IMG/VR virus record: IMGVR_UViG_3300007735_000763
Span: 1-58,210 of that record
From: a virus
Direction: 5' to 3' (one strand)
DNA: 58,210 nucleotides
The notes beneath the pieces are model-generated. The model saw nothing but the letters and a program-made list of their open reading frames with translations. It did no database searches and had not been told where the DNA came from. The position numbers and the translations under genes are program-made. Below are positions 21,400 to 37,506 of this stretch, piece by piece (the first letter of the stretch is position 1; each line of letters begins with the position of its first letter).

Positions 21400-22932
21400 A
21401 TGACCGATATCACACGGTTCAAGGCGATCTTTTCGGGCTTGGATATCGCCTACGGGACCTACAAGATTGAAGGCGAGAAAGGCAACGGCAAGCAAGCCGG
21501 TAAAGCCGTCGTCGTACGCAAGCCGCCAACGGATGACCTTTGGCAAAAACACCTCGAGGGTGCAGAGCCGTCACTCGGCATCATCCCCATTCGTGCAGAC
21601 AACTCCTGCATCTGGGGCTGCATCGACATTGACCAGTACCCGCTCGATCACGCGGGACTCGTCCAAAAGATTCGCGGGCTAAACCTCCCGCTCGTCGTCT
21701 GCCGGAGCAAGTCCGGCGGCGCGCACGTATTTCTGTTCGTCAACGAACCCATGCCCGCAGGCGAGATGCAAAAATATCTCAAGGCCTGCGCAGGACTTTT
21801 GGGCGAGGCCGGTCGCGAGATCTTTCCAAAGCAAGCGGAGATCCTTGTCGAACGCGGCGACACGGGTAACTTCCTTAACCTCCCGTACTTTGGCGGCGAC
21901 GACACCATGCGTTACGCCTTCAAAGACGACGGTAAGGCGGCAACGCTCGAGGAGTTCTATGAACTCTACGACAAGTTCGTGCAGCCAAAGACCGTGGAAG
22001 TCCCAGAAGGGCCCAAGGCTCCCGAAGCACCGATCAAGGACGGGCCGCCGTGCTTACAGGCGATCTGTGCACAGGGCGTGCCTGAGGGCACGCGGAACAA
22101 CGCGTTATTCGCCATCGGAACGTATCTCAAGCGCGCGCACCCTGCGACCTGGGACAACGCCATCGTCGAGTACAACTACAAATACGTGAGTCCGCCGCTG
22201 CCGAACAATGAAGTGCAGCTTCTGATCAAGCAGCTCAATAAAAAGGACTACAAGTACAAGTGCAAGGACGCGCCGCTCAACTCCTTCTGCAACAGCGGCC
22301 TATGCAGGACTCGCAAATACGGGATCGGGGCTCACGGGCCAGATAGCCCGCAGCTCTCCGCGCTCTCCAAGTACGCGAGCGAACCGCCCTTGTGGTTCCT
22401 GGACGTAAACGGCAAGCGCATCGAGCTTGATACAGAAAGCCTCTTCAACCAGATCGCCTTCCAAAAGGCGTGCGTCGAGAAGCTGAACGTGCTTCCCCCT
22501 GCCGTGCGTAAGCAGGACTGGGAGCAGATGCTGAATGGGCTGCTCACAGAGATGGTCGAGAGCGAACAGATCACGGTCGCGAGTGAAGATACAACCGTCA
22601 CGGGCCAGTTCAATGATCTTCTCGAGGAGTTCTGCACGCACTTGCAGCAGGCGATGGATCGGGACGAGATCCTACTCGGCCGCCCGTGGACGAATGACGA
22701 TGAGGGCAAAACATACTTCCGCATGAAGGATCTGAATGCCCATCTCGTGCGCAACAACTTCAAGGCGTTGACCTCGCCAAAGATGGCGCAGCGCGTCCGA
22801 GACATTGGCGGTGAGCCGATCAGCCTCTTTATCAAGAACCGAGCCGTGCGCTGCTGGCGCATCCCGCGCTTTGAGCGGCAGGACTCGCCCTTTGATACGC
22901 CGGAACAAAAGAAAGGTAGGAGCCCATTCTAA
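21400..22932 (+). CDS. Archaeo-eukaryotic-type primase (AEP)
   Basis: 510 residues. The N-terminal domain carries the AEP signature: CIDIDQYP with D76 and D78 as metal ligands, then SKSGGAHVFL with H109, and further on ERGDTGNFLNLPYF. The middle has a PriCT-like helical region (ICAQGVPEGTRNNALFAIGTYLKR) and a small Cys cluster (CNSGLC). It resembles primases of the TOTE-associated group found in phages. It would make primers for the family A polymerase encoded 2 kb downstream. The C-terminus ends RSPF, like the SVPF tail of the SSB candidate. Confidence 0.8.
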   Translation: MTDITRFKAIFSGLDIAYGTYKIEGEKGNGKQAGKAVVVRKPPTDDLWQKHLEGAEPSLGIIPIRADNSCIWGCIDIDQYPLDHAGLVQKIRGLNLPLVVCRSKSGGAHVFLFVNEPMPAGEMQKYLKACAGLLGEAGREIFPKQAEILVERGDTGNFLNLPYFGGDDTMRYAFKDDGKAATLEEFYELYDKFVQPKTVEVPEGPKAPEAPIKDGPPCLQAICAQGVPEGTRNNALFAIGTYLKRAHPATWDNAIVEYNYKYVSPPLPNNEVQLLIKQLNKKDYKYKCKDAPLNSFCNSGLCRTRKYGIGAHGPDSPQLSALSKYASEPPLWFLDVNGKRIELDTESLFNQIAFQKACVEKLNVLPPAVRKQDWEQMLNGLLTEMVESEQITVASEDTTVTGQFNDLLEEFCTHLQQAMDRDEILLGRPWTNDDEGKTYFRMKDLNAHLVRNNFKALTSPKMAQRVRDIGGEPISLFIKNRAVRCWRIPRFERQDSPFDTPEQKKGRSPF

Positions 22933-23210
22933 TGCTCAAGATCGACGGCTTTGACAATGCGTTGATTGGTATATCCACCGTCTGGCAAAAGCATGAGGGC
23001 GGTGGGGCGGAGCGCGTGGATACGCTGATCTATGACGGAGAGATCATCACGACGATCCTCATGCACCAATCAGGCATGTCTCACGAAGAGGCGCTCGAGT
23101 ACATCAGTTTCAATATCGAAGGCGCCTACGTCGGCACAGCCACCCCCATCATCGTCTGGCCCTGCGACATGGACAGGGTCAATGAAATAGCGGAGGAAGC
23201 AGGTGATTAA
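22932..23210 (+). CDS. Conserved small phage protein, 92 residues
   Basis: Starts at an ATG overlapping the primase stop by one base. The segment EEALEYISFNIEGAYVGTATPIIV recurs in small proteins next to phage replication genes, with no assigned role. Mixed alpha/beta, acidic C-terminus. The overlap implies co-translation with the primase. Confidence 0.65.
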   Translation: MLKIDGFDNALIGISTVWQKHEGGGAERVDTLIYDGEIITTILMHQSGMSHEEALEYISFNIEGAYVGTATPIIVWPCDMDRVNEIAEEAGD

Positions 23211-26740: not shown

Positions 26741-26744
26741 TCCT

Positions 26745-27143
26745 GTGCCTAAGAACAAAGAAGTTTTTATCCCTGACCCAGAGGACTTGCGGATCTGGGA
26801 GGAGTACATGAACGCCCCGCCCAGGCCAAAGCCCGTGATCCCACGGGATCAGTATCGCCGGCGCAGGAAGAGTAAACGCAAGGTCCAGCAGATCGAGCGC
26901 AACCGCGTGTCGCCCACGCTCCGGGGATTCCGTTCGATCATGGTACGAAGATCGACCTATGAAATGCTCTTTGAGATGAAGATCTTCTACAAGAAAAGTT
27001 TTACCCACATTGTCCACGAGCTTGTAAACATCGCCTACCAAAAGACGTACAAGCAGGCTGAAGTGCTTGCGCGCATCGAAGCAAATAGGATAAAAAATGA
27101 AACATCTGACCCAACTCAACCTCGACGTCGCTATAACGTATGA
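26745..27143 (+). CDS. Basic DNA-binding candidate, ribbon-helix-helix-like C-terminus
   Basis: 132 residues from GTG 26745, seven bases after AAGAGGT. A Pro/Arg-rich middle (PRPKPVIPRDQYRRRRKSKRK) precedes a segment that fits a ribbon-helix-helix: FRSIMVRRSTYEMLFEMKIFYKKSFTHIVHELVNIAY. First gene of the early block after the polymerase, so a transcription regulator is plausible. Overlaps the next gene by 47 bases. Confidence 0.5.
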   Translation: MPKNKEVFIPDPEDLRIWEEYMNAPPRPKPVIPRDQYRRRRKSKRKVQQIERNRVSPTLRGFRSIMVRRSTYEMLFEMKIFYKKSFTHIVHELVNIAYQKTYKQAEVLARIEANRIKNETSDPTQPRRRYNV

Positions 27144-27333
27144 TATTCTCGAGCCGATCCAGGTGCAGGAGTACATCCTCCCGCCCATGATCGAGCTTCG
27201 AGATGCGTATGTAGAACTGGAGAAAGAAGACGGTAAAAAGGCCCGCGTGAATGTACTCAAGGTATTGAGTGAATCGCAGCGTATGCTGCTTGAAGATGAG
27301 ATCATTGAAGCTTTAACAGGAGAAAGAGAGTGA
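27097..27333 (+). CDS. 78-residue early protein
   Basis: ATG after AGGATAAAAA, starting inside the preceding gene. Acidic, helical C-terminal half (VLKVLSESQRMLLEDEIIEALTGERE), beta-like N-terminus. ATGA-type overlap (GTGA) with the next gene. No recognised family. Confidence 0.55.
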   Translation: MKHLTQLNLDVAITYDILEPIQVQEYILPPMIELRDAYVELEKEDGKKARVNVLKVLSESQRMLLEDEIIEALTGERE

Positions 27334-27530
27334 ACGTATTTCCAGAACGAGTGACCGATGACCGTGGATCCGCCAAGATTGAAGGCGGGATCACGCTGCG
27401 TGATTACTTCGCAACCGCCGCAATGCAGGCGATCCTCAGTGGCCAGGGCGGCCATTACCACAACCGCTGGGAACTTGTGGGCGATGCCTACAAGGTCGCC
27501 GATGCCATGCTCGAGAGTCGCGAGAAATGA
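27330..27530 (+). CDS. Conserved early phage protein (GITLRDYF family)
   Basis: 66 residues, GTG start overlapping the previous stop. GGITLRDYFATAAMQAIL, then DAYKVADAMLESREK at the C-terminus. This arrangement is very common among small phage proteins (from memory) and has no experimental role. Followed by a 4-base overlap with the next gene. Confidence 0.65.
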   Translation: MNVFPERVTDDRGSAKIEGGITLRDYFATAAMQAILSGQGGHYHNRWELVGDAYKVADAMLESREK

Positions 27531-27715
27531 GTGTCGTCTCCAAAGTCCGCCGCTGCACCGAATGCAAACAGGTCTTCGCGTCCCCAGACGCGTTCCGCTT
27601 GCACAAGCGCGTGGATGGGAACTGCCGCTCGATCGAGGCCCTGACGGCGATCGGGTACATACAGACACCAAAAGGCTGGCTTCATACCAAAGTGCCGCCT
27701 GGGAGTAGGCGATGA
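27527..27715 (+). CDS. Small zinc-finger protein, FDXHR-like
   Basis: 62 residues. C10xxC13, H26 and C33 make a likely zinc site: CTECKQVFASPDAFRLHK, then NCRSIEALTAIGY. The layout resembles the phage FDXHR putative zinc-binding family (CxxC, F-x-x-H, CR...L...G...W). Overlaps both neighbours by 4 bases. Presumed nucleic-acid or host-protein binder. Confidence 0.65.
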   Translation: MSVVSKVRRCTECKQVFASPDAFRLHKRVDGNCRSIEALTAIGYIQTPKGWLHTKVPPGSRR

Positions 27716-27963
27716 CTCTTGATAATGTCTTCCAATGGTCCCAGGAGGCCGGAGTGGCTTCGGGATCCGAGCCCGTGAATATCACCGCACTCCAACGCTT
27801 CGCCGCCCTCGTTGCCGCTGCCGAGCGGGAGGCGTGTGCGAAGGTGTGTGAGGAAACACTAACGCATCACTACATAAAGAAAATGGCCGACAAAGACCAC
27901 CCGATGCTTCTTGCGGCGTGTGCCGACTGCGCCGCCGCCATCCGTGCGCGAGGTGAGGTATGA
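27712..27963 (+). CDS. Small early protein, paralogue of 28396-28698
   Basis: 83 residues. It shares RFAALVAAAEREACAKVCEE and a terminal CAAAIRARGE with the gene two places downstream, so the two probably arose by duplication. Helical, with several Cys (ACADCAAAIRA) that might bind metal. This family is frequent in aquatic phages, function unknown. ATGA overlaps on both sides. Confidence 0.6.
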   Translation: MTLDNVFQWSQEAGVASGSEPVNITALQRFAALVAAAEREACAKVCEETLTHHYIKKMADKDHPMLLAACADCAAAIRARGEV

Positions 27964-28298
27964 CCAAAGTAGACATTGCAGACCGCGTTCGTATCCGAGC
28001 GATGAAGGCTTGCACTAGTGGTGACATGGAACTGTTTAACCTACTAGTGGAAGTGCTTAATCGGTTTGAATCGACTAACCGTTTCTATGGCACACCTTTA
28101 ACAGCACTTGGCTTGACCGTGCGTACGCATAACATTTTGGAACGAGACGGCGTGTACAGCGTCGAACAGTTGAAGGAGGTATCAAAAATAGATCTTTTGA
28201 GGATGCCGAGAATGGGCAAGAAAGGTTTACGCGAAGTTGAAGATGCCTTGCAGTGTTGGAACAACGCAAACCAATCTGAACAGGAGCAACCGCGATGA
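27960..28298 (+). CDS. RNA polymerase alpha C-terminal-domain-like protein
   Basis: 112 residues. Residues 45-100 follow the alpha-CTD of bacterial RpoA: TPLTALGLTVRTHNIL, then DGVYSVEQLKEVSKIDLLRMPRMGKKGLREVEDAL. The DNA-contact positions equal to E. coli Arg265, Asn268, Gly296 and Lys298 are kept (R55, N58, G86, K88); Ser299 is Gly89. The N-terminal 40 residues are helical and unlike RpoA. It may bind UP-element DNA, sigma or activators to redirect host transcription. A plain helix-hairpin-helix protein is the alternative. Confidence 0.7.
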   Translation: MTKVDIADRVRIRAMKACTSGDMELFNLLVEVLNRFESTNRFYGTPLTALGLTVRTHNILERDGVYSVEQLKEVSKIDLLRMPRMGKKGLREVEDALQCWNNANQSEQEQPR

Positions 28299-28399
28299 CC
28301 CGCGACGACATTGATTTTCACGCGTTGATGATTGCTGCAACGTTAATGTTAGTTGTGGCTGTAGTCTCGTTTCTTGCCGCATTGCTGGTGATGCCATGA
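28295..28399 (+). CDS. 34-residue single-TM protein
   Basis: ATG 28295 overlaps the upstream stop and TGA 28397-28399 overlaps the next ATG. MTRDDIDFHAL is followed by one hydrophobic helix to the end (about 11-33). The first 18 bases are identical to the first 18 bases of the next gene (MTRDDI), suggesting that the start region was duplicated. Confidence 0.5.
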   Translation: MTRDDIDFHALMIAATLMLVVAVVSFLAALLVMP

Positions 28400-28698
28400 C
28401 CCGCGACGACATTATCCGCATGGCGCGAGAAGCAAACTGCACAACGCCGGGACAAGTACTTCAATTCACGATAGAAGAACTTAAACGCTTCGCCGCCTTT
28501 GTTGCCGCCGCCGAGCGAGAAAAACTTACGCAGGCCGCAATGTCAGCAGCGGAGATAGCCATTGATAAGGCTATTGAGTTGGAGCGAGAGGCGTGTGCGA
28601 AGGTGTGTGAATCAGAAGCCGCAAAACTTAGTCAATCACGCGATGCACTTGCAATTGGAATCTGCGCCGCCGCGATTCGGGCGAGGGGTGAGACATGA
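28396..28698 (+). CDS. Small early protein, paralogue of 27712-27963
   Basis: 100 residues. MTRDDIIRMAREA at the start, LKRFAAFVAAAERE in the middle, EREACAKVCESEA and a terminal CAAAIRARGE. The ends and centre match the protein at 27712-27963, with an extra helix in between that partly repeats the AERE/EREA unit. Common in aquatic phages, function unknown. Confidence 0.6.
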   Translation: MTRDDIIRMAREANCTTPGQVLQFTIEELKRFAAFVAAAEREKLTQAAMSAAEIAIDKAIELEREACAKVCESEAAKLSQSRDALAIGICAAAIRARGET

Positions 28699-28916
28699 AG
28701 ACCATTATCCACGTGAACCAACACGCCATCCGCAAGAACATCAAAGCCGATAAGCGCGAGCCGGTGCTCACGGTCAAAACCTATAAGTCCAACACCTACG
28801 CCCATGAGGTCGCGCTACACGGGCCGTCCAAGGTCGTCTATTCGCCCGATAAGCCGCTCTCCTGCGGCGCCAGGGTTTGGATTGAGACCGAAGATAAAGT
28901 GGAGATCATCCGATGA
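28695..28916 (+). CDS. Conserved small early protein (HVNQH family)
   Basis: 73 residues, beta-rich: MKTIIHVNQHAIRKNIK, then VLTVKTYKSNTYAHEV, LHGPSKVVYSP and CGARVWIETEDKVEII. From memory this small barrel-like protein recurs in many phage early regions without known function. Overlaps both neighbours by 4 bases. Confidence 0.65.
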   Translation: MKTIIHVNQHAIRKNIKADKREPVLTVKTYKSNTYAHEVALHGPSKVVYSPDKPLSCGARVWIETEDKVEIIR

Positions 28917-29239
28917 GCCGCAAAGCTGTACTCGAGCGCACGCTCGGCAAGAAAGCCGCCAAGAAATTCTTGCCGGCACCCAAGAAACAAGTCGCTACTC
29001 CCGTCACTCTGGAAGTGGACTGCGACCTCGTTGAACAGGTCGTCGTCCAGGAACTCATCGGCCTTCACACTTCGCTCTCGCGCGACCTTAAGGATCGCAA
29101 AGGGGGCAAGAAGATCGCCGTCTTTGATCGCGACAAAAATATCGACATCGCAACTCTCAACGGCCACCTCTTCGCCGTGGAGACCGTGCTCAAGTACTAC
29201 ACGACGCCTGCGCAGCTCAAGGAATACGGTTTCAAGTAA
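28913..29239 (+). CDS. 108-residue basic early protein
   Basis: A Lys/Arg-rich N-terminus (LGKKAAKKFLPAPKKQ) precedes a helical region (VEQVVVQELIGLHTSLSRDLKD) and a C-terminal helix (LFAVETVLKYYTTPAQLKEYGF). No known motif. Last gene of an overlap-coupled run; the following gene has its own promoter signal. Confidence 0.55.
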   Translation: MSRKAVLERTLGKKAAKKFLPAPKKQVATPVTLEVDCDLVEQVVVQELIGLHTSLSRDLKDRKGGKKIAVFDRDKNIDIATLNGHLFAVETVLKYYTTPAQLKEYGFK

Positions 29240-29266
29240 TGCTCCGGGCCGCTAGAATCGCGGCCC
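29230..29266 (+). promoter_or_regulatory. Leaderless promoter with palindrome around the -10
   Basis: TAGAAT at 29253-29258 lies between two perfect 7-base arms, GGGCCGC (29246-29252) and GCGGCCC (29260-29266). The right arm ends at the base before ATG 29267. A weak -35 (TTTCAA, 29230-29235) is 17 bases upstream. There is no Shine-Dalgarno site. This fits a promoter whose transcript starts at or near the start codon, controlled by a protein binding the palindrome. Confidence 0.5.
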
Positions 29267-29692
29267 ATGAAGGTCGTCTGTGAAAAGGTCGACCCTTCAA
29301 ACCCGGAAGTCGAAGAGACTCTCATCGAGCTGCAACGGGCTTGTCTGCCGCACGATGCTTTGTACTTCCCGGAAGAGGGGGTTTGGTGGATCGCGTACCA
29401 CCGGCGTACACCGGTCGCGTTCGCTTGTCTTGTCCCATCCCAGCAGATCGCCGATGCCGTCTATCTCAGCCGATCCGGGGTCACCCCGCTCGCTCGAGGC
29501 GGCGGCATCCAACGTCGCCTTATCCGCGTACGCCTCATCTGGGCTAAACGGCAGGGCTACAACTGGGCGGTGTCAGACACCACGGATAACGAACCAAGCG
29601 CCAATAACCTCATCGCGTGTGGCTTCAAGCTCTACACGCCGCCTCTCCCCTATTCTTTTGCACGAGCCCTGTATTGGAAAAGAAAACTCTAA
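29267..29692 (+). CDS. GNAT-family N-acetyltransferase
   Basis: 141 residues. GNAT layout: WWIAYHRRTPVAFACL strand region, LSRSGVTPLARGGGIQRRLIRVRLIWAK (acetyl-CoA pyrophosphate loop 72-82 followed by its helix), and DTTDNEPSANNLIACGFKLY near the end. The substrate is unknown; phage GNATs may modify host or virion proteins or small molecules. The start codon directly follows a palindrome with an embedded -10 and has no ribosome site, so the mRNA is probably leaderless. Confidence 0.75.
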   Translation: MKVVCEKVDPSNPEVEETLIELQRACLPHDALYFPEEGVWWIAYHRRTPVAFACLVPSQQIADAVYLSRSGVTPLARGGGIQRRLIRVRLIWAKRQGYNWAVSDTTDNEPSANNLIACGFKLYTPPLPYSFARALYWKRKL

Positions 29693-31422: not shown

Positions 31423-31478
31423 GCTTGCGTGGCCTCTCCCTAGGAATCGCTAGTACCTCTACGATCACGTGCCACGGA

Positions 31479-31510
31479 CCCCACCGGTGATGAGCCGGTG
31501 GGGTTTTTTA
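31479..31510 (+). terminator. Rho-independent terminator closing the early operon
   Basis: CCCCACCGG (31479-31487), a 7-base loop, CCGGTGGGG (31495-31503), then TTTTTTA. A perfect 9-bp GC-rich stem with a U tract, about 57 bases after the last early gene. Confidence 0.9.
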
Positions 31511-31596
31511 TTGCGGTGGGGAGGCGGCGGGGATGGGGGTGGAGGGGTCGAGGACCATGGATCAAGGGCCAAAGTGACCGCATCGTGGCCAAAAGG

Positions 31597-31831
31597 GGCG
31601 TTTTGGGCGGTCTATATAGATCTTTTTAGGGTCTAATGATTTTTTTATGAAAATTTTAAAATTTGGTGTATTAGACGTAATAGGAGTAATAAGTTAATAG
31701 AAACAATAAGTTATGTACTGTACAGTACCATTACAGTACTTCAGTAGTGAAATTGATATAAAAATCGCGCGAGAACTTTTTTTTTGAAAAAAAAAAAACA
31801 TTAGACCCTAAAAAAGTCTATATAAAACGCC
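31597..31831. repeat. Long inverted repeat around an AT-rich core (origin candidate)
   Basis: Left arm 31597-31638 and right arm 31799-31831 are inverted copies. They share 16 identical bases, TTTTTAGGGTCTAATG (31623-31638) against its complement (31799-31814), then a near-identical TATATAGA-containing part and GGCGTTTT, with a 9-base insertion in the left arm. The 160-base core is very AT-rich, ends in a long A tract and holds short direct repeats (ATAAGTTA twice, TACAGTAC twice). No ORF is supported here. It looks like a replication origin or similar control site. Confidence 0.6.
31715..31728. repeat. 14-bp perfect palindrome in the AT-rich core
   Basis: GTACTGTACAGTAC is self-complementary; TACAGTAC is repeated at 31732-31739. 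It is a likely protein-binding site (initiator or repressor) inside the putative origin. Confidence 0.55.
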
Positions 31832-31843
31832 AAAAACGACTCC

Positions 31844-31879
31844 TTGGCAGGAGTAGTTGCCCTGTTGTAGAGTGGCAGC
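31844..31879 (+). promoter_or_regulatory. Promoter for a leaderless transcript at 31880
   Basis: TTGGCA (31844-31849), 18-base spacer, TAGAGT (31868-31873), then six bases to ATG 31880. With the usual 6-8 base distance the transcript begins at the start codon. There is no ribosome site. GGCA/TGCC half-sites at 31846, 31858 and 31874 overlap both hexamers and could be operator elements. Confidence 0.65.
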
Positions 31880-35070: not shown

Positions 35071-36522
35071 ATGTCGAATATTTTCGAGTTGCCATTCCTG
35101 GCGAGATCGGTAGCTGATTTGCAGCGCGCGGATCGTCTCGCGAATCGGATCGTCGATTGTCTCGCGTCTCTCCAGGATGCGGACGACGATCGCGGTTATC
35201 TCCAGGCCGTTCGATTCTTTGGTCGTATGGTTCGAGCGTCGCTCGATCCCGAGCGCAGCGAGACCTCGCGCCCTTCCGACCTGGCGTTCGTCCAGGACGT
35301 GCTCGAGCGCGCGACCACTCGCGGGTTTTATGCTCCTGCGTTCGCCTACTCGTTTTCGCGAAAGTTGGCATTGGGCCAGGTTGTACGTCGGGTAAACGTC
35401 CAGGATCTAGTCGAGAGTCATTTCGAGAGTGCCGAGGGATCGGATCGGAACGCGATCATCGAGTTATGCGGCGAGCACCACTCGATCATGTTCTGCAATC
35501 ATTGCGACGAGCTGTTCGCCGACCAGGATCTTCAGCGGCGATACGGCGGCGGGTGGGTCTGCTCGAGCTGCCGTGAGGACGTCTTCCAATTCTCCGAGCG
35601 TTATGACGCCTGGGTGCATGATGACTGTGTTCGGGCGGCGCTCGATGAGGACGGAGATCGATGCATCATCGACGAGGACGATTCCGAGTTTCATTTCGAC
35701 GAGGAGCTCGACCAGTATGTGCATGATGATTACGAGCCGCCCTCGAGGTCAGTAATTCGGAACTACCATTCCTCGAAGCCGTTCTTTTCTGTCCGTCGCG
35801 ATACCTGGGTCGAGCAGCATCGGCGCGCCCTGGGAGTGGAGCTCGAGGTCGAGGGGTACTCCATCGATCCCGTCATCGCTGCGCGCGCGATCCACGATCA
35901 CGTCAACGGCGGCGAGTTCGGTCGTAATCTGTTCTTCGAGCGCGACGGCAGTTTGTCCAACGGGTTCGAGTTGATCTCGCAGCCTATGAGCGTGCCGGCG
36001 TTGCGCGAGACGTTCCAGTTCTTGCGTCAGCCTTCCCTGGTTCGAGGTCTCCGCAGTCATCGCACGACGACGTGCGGCCTCCATGTTCACGTCACCAGGG
36101 CGGGGCTCTCGAACCTCACGATCGCCAGGGCGGTGACGTTCGTAAACGATTCGGGGAATGATGCCTTCATCCAGGCATTGGCTCGACGTTACAACACGGG
36201 TTTCTGCAACATCCGAGATAAGGAGCTCGAGACCGCTCACCTGCCAGGGGATCGATACGAGGCGATCAATCTCACGGGGAGCGAGACGATCGAGTTCCGA
36301 ATCTTTCGCGGTTCGCTCAAGTATGAGGCCGTGATTGCTGCGATCGAGTTTTGTCATGCCCTGCTTGACTACTGCGCGCGACCGGAGACGGCGGCGGGGG
36401 GCTTGAATGCTCAAGCGTTTATTCGTTGGTGCGCGAACCATTTGGCCGACGAGACGGCGATCCTGCGGTCGTATGTGAACGATCGCATGGCAGGCCTGTT
36501 CCAACATTCTGAAGCGGCCTAA
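35071..36522 (+). CDS. Amidoligase (COOH-NH2 ligase) with zinc-finger insert
   Basis: 483 residues. The C-terminal half is an amidoligase of the glutamine-synthetase-like fold: GVELEVEG (255-262), FFERDGSLSNGFELIS, GLHVHVT (336-342) and INLTGSETIEFRIFRG (399-414) supply the acidic and His residues for ATP-Mg. The N-terminal half is helical, then has a zinc-binding segment (C142xxC145, C164xxC167, H183 and C186) and acidic patches. It would form an amide or isopeptide bond on an unknown carboxylate. The amidotransferase 21 bases downstream is the likely ammonia source. Confidence 0.8.
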   Translation: MSNIFELPFLARSVADLQRADRLANRIVDCLASLQDADDDRGYLQAVRFFGRMVRASLDPERSETSRPSDLAFVQDVLERATTRGFYAPAFAYSFSRKLALGQVVRRVNVQDLVESHFESAEGSDRNAIIELCGEHHSIMFCNHCDELFADQDLQRRYGGGWVCSSCREDVFQFSERYDAWVHDDCVRAALDEDGDRCIIDEDDSEFHFDEELDQYVHDDYEPPSRSVIRNYHSSKPFFSVRRDTWVEQHRRALGVELEVEGYSIDPVIAARAIHDHVNGGEFGRNLFFERDGSLSNGFELISQPMSVPALRETFQFLRQPSLVRGLRSHRTTTCGLHVHVTRAGLSNLTIARAVTFVNDSGNDAFIQALARRYNTGFCNIRDKELETAHLPGDRYEAINLTGSETIEFRIFRGSLKYEAVIAAIEFCHALLDYCARPETAAGGLNAQAFIRWCANHLADETAILRSYVNDRMAGLFQHSEAA

Positions 36523-36543
36523 CAGGGCCAGGGAGTTCTGACT

Positions 36544-37506
36544 ATGTGTCTATTAGTTCATCAGCCCTCGAGCACGTCATTCTCGAATGATTTTCTCGCG
36601 GATGTTTACTCGAGCAATCGCGACGGCATCGGCGCGATGTATGCCCTGGGCGGTCAGCTGCACGTCGTCAAGGCGTTGCCGAAGAATGCCGACGAGTTCA
36701 TCGAGTTCTATCGGCAGCACGTCGAGGGGCGCGAGTCGATCTGGCACGCGCGGATGCAGACTCACGGCGACATCGATCTCGAGAATTGTCATCCGTACCA
36801 GGTGACGGCTCGAGTTGCCCTGGCTCATAACGGGATTCTGTCGACGGGTAACTCCTGGGACAAGGCGCGCTCGGACACTTGGCATTTCATCCGAAATATT
36901 GTTCGACCAGCTGTCGCGAGCGACGAGGCGATCGTGCTCGATCCTTCCTGGCAGTCGTTCCTGGGCGACCTGATTGGCGCCTCGAATAAGTTCGGCATGA
37001 TGACGGCCGACGGCCAGGCGGTGATCATCAATCGCTCGAGCGGCGTCCAATACTCGGGCGCCTGGTTGTCGAACACTTACGCCTGGAGCGCGCACAAGTT
37101 CGGCGTCGGATCGGTTGCGACCAGGTACACGGGCGCGCGCATCTGGTCGGGTTATGACTGGGATGATTACGCGCTCGAGCCTGTGATCGCGAAAGGCTCG
37201 AAGTCGTCCAGGGGCTCGAAGTCCCTGGGCGGGGATTCCCTGGCGAGGATCACCAGGGCGGCGCGCAATTCCTACATTCGCGGGACGTTGGCTCAATGGG
37301 TCGAGGACGCACCAGGGAAGGCGGCGATCCTGGTCAATGCCATCGAGGACGATCCGACGGGCGAATGCGGCGAGCTCGCCTGGGACGACCCAGAGCTCGT
37401 CGTCGATGCCCTGGCTAAATGGTTCGAGCTCGAGGGGTTAGAGCCTGGGCATGCGGCGAGTCGTGTCGAGGATGATCCCTGGGCGCGCTACGGGTTCCAG
37501 GACTAG
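36544..37506 (+). CDS. Class II glutamine amidotransferase (Ntn hydrolase)
   Basis: 320 residues. The nucleophile is Cys2, exposed after Met removal. NRDGIG (25-30), HARMQTHGD (68-76) and LAHNGIL (93-99) complete the glutaminase site with Arg70, His74, Asn96 and Gly97. About 150 further residues include a basic/Ser-rich linker (KGSKSSRGSKSLGG). No synthase domain is attached, so ammonia must go to a partner, most simply the amidoligase of the same operon. Terminator directly downstream. Confidence 0.85.
   Translation: MCLLVHQPSSTSFSNDFLADVYSSNRDGIGAMYALGGQLHVVKALPKNADEFIEFYRQHVEGRESIWHARMQTHGDIDLENCHPYQVTARVALAHNGILSTGNSWDKARSDTWHFIRNIVRPAVASDEAIVLDPSWQSFLGDLIGASNKFGMMTADGQAVIINRSSGVQYSGAWLSNTYAWSAHKFGVGSVATRYTGARIWSGYDWDDYALEPVIAKGSKSSRGSKSLGGDSLARITRAARNSYIRGTLAQWVEDAPGKAAILVNAIEDDPTGECGELAWDDPELVVDALAKWFELEGLEPGHAASRVEDDPWARYGFQD

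Follow-up and report, generated by a model that had tools for sequence, protein, structure and literature searches.

Phages are known to control the function of the C-terminal domain of the RNA polymerase alpha subunit (alpha-CTD of RpoA) by modifying the domain or cutting it off. The T4 proteins Alt and ModA target R265 for modification (PMC2988021, available part), and Rac of phiKMV-like phages severs the alpha-CTD from RNA polymerase during infection (PMC7552054, available part). R265 and N268 of RpoA bind DNA and are required for binding, and E261 and K271 take part in protein contacts (PMC11434276, available part). An alpha-CTD-like domain is also contained in the BREX protein PglW (PMC12839542, available part). 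Phages can encode the domain themselves: ORF 40 of Erythrobacter phage vB_EliS-L02 is named an alpha-CTD protein, by annotation alone, and among the papers looked into, such a phage protein is named only in the available part of that source (PMC9127768). Our literature search, with subscription papers mostly outside its reach, found no functional test of a phage-encoded alpha-CTD.

The window analyzed here is an entire IMG/VR virus record of 58,210 bases that carries phage DNA polymerase, terminase, and portal genes. Between the polymerase and terminase genes lies a gene encoding a 112-residue protein (Table 1), which matches the Pfam family PF03118 (RNA_pol_A_CTD) at 41.6 bits, above the curated cutoff of 23.8 bits. 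A PF03118 profile search of the whole record finds this single place. A phmmer search of the PDB returns the E. coli alpha-CTD (E 1.9e-6, residues 46-98), and the sole other Pfam match, HHH_5 (E 0.035), falls under its cutoff. These Pfam and phmmer E-values rule out a chance resemblance. Full-length RpoA models (NCBIfam, among those listed) have cutoffs of at least 227.8 bits, and the best score of the protein is 43.4; the alpha-NTD, which serves RNA polymerase assembly, is absent. The preliminary description had proposed that the C-terminal half follows the RpoA alpha-CTD, and both sequence and predicted fold bear this out. Its label of a "mimic" is better replaced by that of a captured domain, given the grouping with proteobacterial RpoA described below. 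The gene encodes a captured alpha-CTD, a fresh member of a phage protein type already annotated.

Table 1. Coordinates of the features discussed; positions refer to the window unless a contig is named.
Feature	Position	Strand	Basis or remark
112-aa alpha-CTD gene	27960..28298	+	ATG start; 3 further IMG/VR viral copies, 93-95% aa identity
N-terminal helical hairpin, residues 1-40 (predicted)	27960..28079	+	Model; weak family B hairpin match
alpha-CTD domain, residues 41-98	28080..28253	+	PF03118 E 1e-10; same bases from profile search of record
Arg55 codon (= RpoA Arg265)	28122..28124	+	Sequence and alignment
Apparent mobile cassette	27931..28311	+	90.8% DNA identity with L001; ends near gene borders
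Upstream module gene, EREACAKVCE ... AAIRARGEV	27712..27963	+	3' end is left junction, overlaps alpha-CTD ATG
Downstream paralogous module gene, EREACAKVCE ... AAIRARGET	28396..28698	+	
Free-standing hairpin ORF, 66 aa	27330..27530	+	phrog_2201 E 1.6e-13; hairpin HMM E 1.3e-7
Sigma region 4/alpha-CTD fusion	L162:2521-3234		
Sigma region 4/alpha-CTD fusion	L193:2350-3213		
Sigma region 4/alpha-CTD fusion	L195:2269-3189		
Sigma region 4/alpha-CTD fusion	L197:2296-3195		
Sigma region 4/alpha-CTD fusion	L198:2359-3273		

A structure model was built on 14 rows, comprising the four near-identical copies and 10 alpha-CTD stretches of other viral loci. Its pLDDT is 87.5, compared with 49.3 for a prediction from the four close copies alone; the added rows steer the C-terminal fold, and the model therefore depends partly on the sequence match. 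In the model, helices 3-20 and 23-39 form a hairpin that precedes the alpha-CTD; superposition of the latter on experimental alpha-CTD structures gives 0.7-1.1 A and Z scores up to 11.5. The best 50 Foldseek matches listed are all RNA polymerase entries by title, including 7vpd_S, with 40% identity and 0.7 A across 55 aligned columns. The VIA-align Z scores are 11.5 for the cyanobacterial alpha chain 9dvu_A, 10.6 for the Spx-bound alpha-CTD 1z3e_B, and 9.8 for 3n97_C from an alpha-CTD/sigma4/DNA complex.

The fold belongs to the helix-hairpin-helix group, and a generic DNA-binding protein of that group, acting in replication or repair rather than transcription, would be compatible with the HHH_5 match under its cutoff and with a location between DNA polymerase and terminase genes. 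The comparison with such proteins, suggested in the preliminary description, was run: the alpha-CTD ranks first in Pfam, Foldseek, and VIA-align, and the best other helix-hairpin-helix rows, Dmc1/RAD51, score Z 8.6-9.5, lower than the top alpha-CTD. No better match to another helix-hairpin-helix protein appears among the matches listed. In addition, phage DSL-LC04, which has matching replication genes, shows no match for this gene within the compared stretch, which argues that the gene is no core replication part. We regard the generic DNA-binding role as improbable.

Alignment to E. coli RpoA equates R55, N58, G86, and K88 with R265, N268, G296, and K298, and these four equivalents, singled out in the preliminary description, are identical in all four known copies. 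E302 is also kept, so that five of the six DNA-contact residues of the 265 surface (R265, N268, G296, K298, S299, E302) are retained and S299 is replaced by G89. Further substitutions are D259 to A49, E261 to G51, C269 to I59, and K271 to E61, and three of the four copies carry E in place of K at position 297. Because S299, C269, K271, and D259/E261 are replaced, the functional face is incompletely kept. Among 30 distinct phage alpha-CTD domains, 29 have R in the R265 column and the other has K; the N268 column holds N in 20, H in six, and R in four. K occupies the K298 column in 25 of these domains, and 13 have an acidic residue at position 259.

The acidic residues 259 and 261 of RpoA contact sigma. 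Position 259 is acidic in 19 of 19 RpoA rows and position 261 in 18 of 19, and the two are A and G in all three distinct domains of the window gene's family. Competition for UP-element DNA by the phage alpha-CTD, one of the roles first proposed, stays possible because the phage domain retains R265, N268, G296, and K298. Sigma as a target of competition, also proposed there, fares less well: with the acidic pair absent from this family, contact with sigma appears unlikely.

The alpha-CTD face might instead act as a protein decoy that baits host activators or other RpoA-docking factors, silencing activator-dependent host genes with no need for DNA binding. Many activators dock on the domain (PMC11434276, available part), as does Spx (PMC2801614, available part), and the model matches the Spx-bound form. 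However, the protein-contact positions 259/261 and K271 are changed, and the best-kept residues are those that contact DNA, which makes the decoy rather unlikely.

The N-terminal 40 residues are unlike RpoA, as originally noted, and have no PHROG or Pfam match of their own. They match, weakly, the hairpin HMM of a viral protein family that we call family B (11.3 bits, a score equalled or passed by one of 2000 shuffles), and the elements MTK, D, I, and AMKA stand in register with the family B locus L209. Family B proteins are viral, approximately 122-131 residues long, and consist of a hairpin of the type LLDxFAIEAMKA ... AYxIAExMLExR followed by an alpha-CTD. A family B scan gave 12 loci (L199-L210, where L199 is the L089 contig and L204 the L045 contig). 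Contig L209 carries two family B-type alpha-CTD proteins, as fragments starting at 1541 and 3998. The window itself encodes a free-standing copy of the hairpin domain that family B joins to its alpha-CTD (Table 1), and this ORF also matches phrog_30599, labelled transcriptional regulator (E 1.1e-4). The weak HMM match and the common register suggest that the N-terminal hairpin of the 112-residue protein may be homologous to a common phage mini-protein hairpin of the family B/phrog_2201 type. Family B and the window protein each combine a hairpin, predicted in the latter, with a proteobacterial-type alpha-CTD. Family B differs in its longer second helix and in the N268 column (five H, four R, and two N among 11 domains), and it keeps C269, N294, and mostly S299.

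Three further copies of the gene are found in IMG/VR, in contigs L001, L002, and L003. Between the window and each relative, dN is 0.025-0.033 and dS 0.42-0.44 (dN/dS 0.06-0.08), so the protein is maintained; the gene is under purifying selection. Outside the gene, the contigs have little in common. Besides the cassette, the window and L001 have two short pieces in common. In the comparison with L002, window positions 27930-28298 match at 89.4%, and a separate piece of 191 bases matches elsewhere; with L003, positions 27794-28298 match at 83%, together with several short module pieces. L002 and L003 are alike in a single 373-base region (96.5%) that begins 30 bases upstream of the ATG and runs to four bases past the stop codon; nothing else exceeds the comparison threshold. 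For L001 and L003, a 370-base match at 98.1% is accompanied by six fragments of 27-48 bases. The pair L001 and L002 has, in addition to the gene, four other regions that match at 69-74%, so that these two may be related phages. In all four contigs, the 3' end of a module-like gene precedes the alpha-CTD gene, and its last bases, ATYCGKGCGMGRGGTGAKGTATG, overlap the ATG; the stretch downstream differs among the four. The GC content of the gene is 46.9%, compared with 57.4% for the window. Near-identical copies in largely unrelated phage contigs thus give the gene the appearance of a one-gene mobile cassette, and recombination at the common module ends is likely how it moves.

Searches for additional relatives were also performed. 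A pattern search of genome contigs gave 52 stretches, of which none was confirmed, and a search with the RxHN signature gave 11, namely the three known contigs and eight apparent chance hits. A recent copy from a host was considered and rejected: the 399 genomes from the order of G005, a betaproteobacterial MAG, give only full-length RpoA among the matches listed. P0001 matches 377 of these genomes, once each and in frames of at least 325 residues among the matches listed.

The genes flanking the cassette belong to a repeated family in the window, EREACAKVCE...AAIRARGE, with near-identical repeated ends; the upstream member carries repeats D2, D3, and D5 of the window repeat search. At least 120 viral stretches (L033-L152) contain the EREACAKVCE pattern, and three of these loci (L045, L089, and L113) hold family B members. 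The pattern is also present in five MAG contigs titled as five different phyla. The module genes look like recombination sites for gene cassettes.

The nearest named phage is DSL-LC04 from lake water (terminase 78%, DNA polymerase 77%), and the stretch compared has primase, helicase, polymerase, and terminase small subunit genes in the window's order. The small genes at 26741-29692 of the window, including the alpha-CTD gene, have no match in that stretch, and the gene at 29693-30079 matches at another place and strand. The alpha-CTD gene belongs to a variable island, where it is an accessory cassette. Such a location, and the absence from the compared DSL-LC04 stretch, would also suit a passenger gene with no role for the phage. 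The purifying selection measured against the window copy speaks against a passenger, which we consider very improbable.

Several other features of the window were recorded. The gene run of the alpha-CTD gene also holds, approximately 1 kb downstream of it, a GNAT acetyltransferase gene (29267-29692; PF00583, E 1.1e-6), whose nearest phage match, Limnohabitans phage YIMV22061, hints at a freshwater host. The product of 22932-23210 is 49% identical to that of a DSL-LC04 gene annotated as "RNA polymerase sigma-G factor"; a Pfam sigma domain is absent from both products, and the annotation looks doubtful. Positions 35071-37506 hold an Amidoligase_2 gene and, after it, a weak match to class-II glutamine amidotransferases. 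The AT-richest stretch (31592-31845, 78% in its richest 100 bases) contains long A/T tracts flanked by 55-nt inverted repeats that are 84% complementary, and a strong terminator-like stem at 31476-31506 precedes it. This stretch is a candidate origin, control region, or alpha-CTD target. An Rfam search of the window gave no match.

Other phages carry alpha-CTDs outside RpoA, including Morganella phage Mecenats66, Microbacterium phage Mazun, and Mycobacterium phages Zenteno07 and Mithril. Relatives named alpha-CTD proteins in BFVD come from an uncultured Caudovirales phage, Mithril, and Rhodococcus phage Finch. ORF34 of Mecenats66 (L005:2641-3204) is a fusion of NinX and alpha-CTD domains, and a second NinX-type ORF lies nearby. 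IMG/VR proteins have the domain at either end or in tandem. Fusions of a sigma70 region 4-like HTH with an alpha-CTD were tabulated as five distinct proteins of IMG/VR viral contigs (Table 1; L195 is tabulated jointly with L196), with region 4 E-values of 4.3e-13, 1.3e-8, 3.9e-7, 2.9e-6, and 2e-4, the last under the cutoff. Over 91-93% of its length, L193 aligns with two phage records from human faeces.

In a tree of 65 columns with 21 open forks, the window family and family B group with proteobacterial RpoA with modest support (91/94). The branch that unites the window protein and family B (88/89) includes the Morganella phage protein as well. Of the five sigma fusions tabulated, four group with Bacteroidetes-type RpoA (98/95). 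The separate placements with proteobacterial and Bacteroidetes-type RpoA argue for more than one capture of the alpha-CTD by phages. Placement of the actinophage proteins in one clade with the window protein was also considered; the tree, with its few columns and 21 open forks, places them elsewhere. That the domain recurs in separate phage lineages, sometimes in fusion with sigma region 4, suggests that phages have a class of transcription regulators that is so far unstudied.

These data allow us to propose a function. The most likely reading, to which we give about an even chance, is that the protein is a detached, DNA-binding alpha-CTD on a helical hairpin that modulates promoter choice through interference with or redirection of transcription. 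The alpha-CTD would read A/T-rich minor grooves as that of RpoA does, and the hairpin would dimerise it or bind a partner. Because the domain is not tied to RNA polymerase, it could occupy or mark upstream promoter DNA. UP-element or activator-dependent host transcription might then be weakened; alternatively, polymerase might be steered to phage promoters via the hairpin's partner. The DNA-contact residues kept in every copy and the near-invariant R265 equivalent count for a DNA-binding role. Counting against it are the S299, C269, and K271 replacements with E at 297 in most copies, a DNA face that is not uniform among phage relatives (N268 mostly H or R in family B), and a sigma-70 promoter scan that found two promoters near the gene compared with 3.2 expected, and hence no excess. 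The sigma region 4 fusions tie phage alpha-CTDs to promoter recognition; they stand in other tree lineages and have little direct bearing on the window protein.

The prominence of R265 permits a further explanation. As the target of T4 Alt/ModA and the best-kept residue, it could mark the detached alpha-CTD as a sacrificial substrate that absorbs alpha-modifying ADP-ribosyltransferases or acetyltransferases of rival phages, and the nearby GNAT gene would fit. However, DNA binding explains R265 equally well, such enzymes would first have to meet the protein, and the search with the window GNAT gave only two phage records, the Limnohabitans phage first, which lends no support to a likeness to Rac. 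The sacrificial role is therefore highly unlikely.

Returning to the promoter-targeting reading, a broader and distinctly more tentative version is that phages have repeatedly lifted the alpha-CTD from RpoA as an exchangeable promoter-targeting cassette, either bare on hairpins, as in the window family and family B, or fused to sigma region 4. The window gene would then be a mobile form, blind to sigma, that redirects host transcription solely through binding to DNA. If so, a sigma region 4 fusion would place both upstream promoter-reading modules of the holoenzyme in one phage protein. A phage that supplies its own detached alpha-CTD would represent the simplest form of the strategy of acting on this domain. 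With 112 residues and one key arginine, Arg55, the idea is approachable with one protein and one point mutant.

The window protein resembles the RpoA alpha-CTD in fold, in sequence over 53-58 residues, and in R265, N268, G296, K298, and E302. It differs from RpoA in having a helical hairpin instead of the alpha-NTD, so that it could not assemble into RNA polymerase as alpha, and in carrying A49/G51 for acidic 259/261 and G for S299. Like the sigma region 4 fusions, it is an alpha-CTD outside RpoA in a viral contig, whereas those proteins are sigma-fused and mostly of Bacteroidetes-type affinity. Annotated phage proteins such as vB_EliS-L02 ORF 40 are likewise small and carry an alpha-CTD, but those compared have other N-terminal parts. 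With phiKMV-like Rac and T4 Alt/ModA, the window protein would share phage control over alpha-CTD function; those proteins cut off or modify the host domain, whereas the window protein is an extra copy of it.
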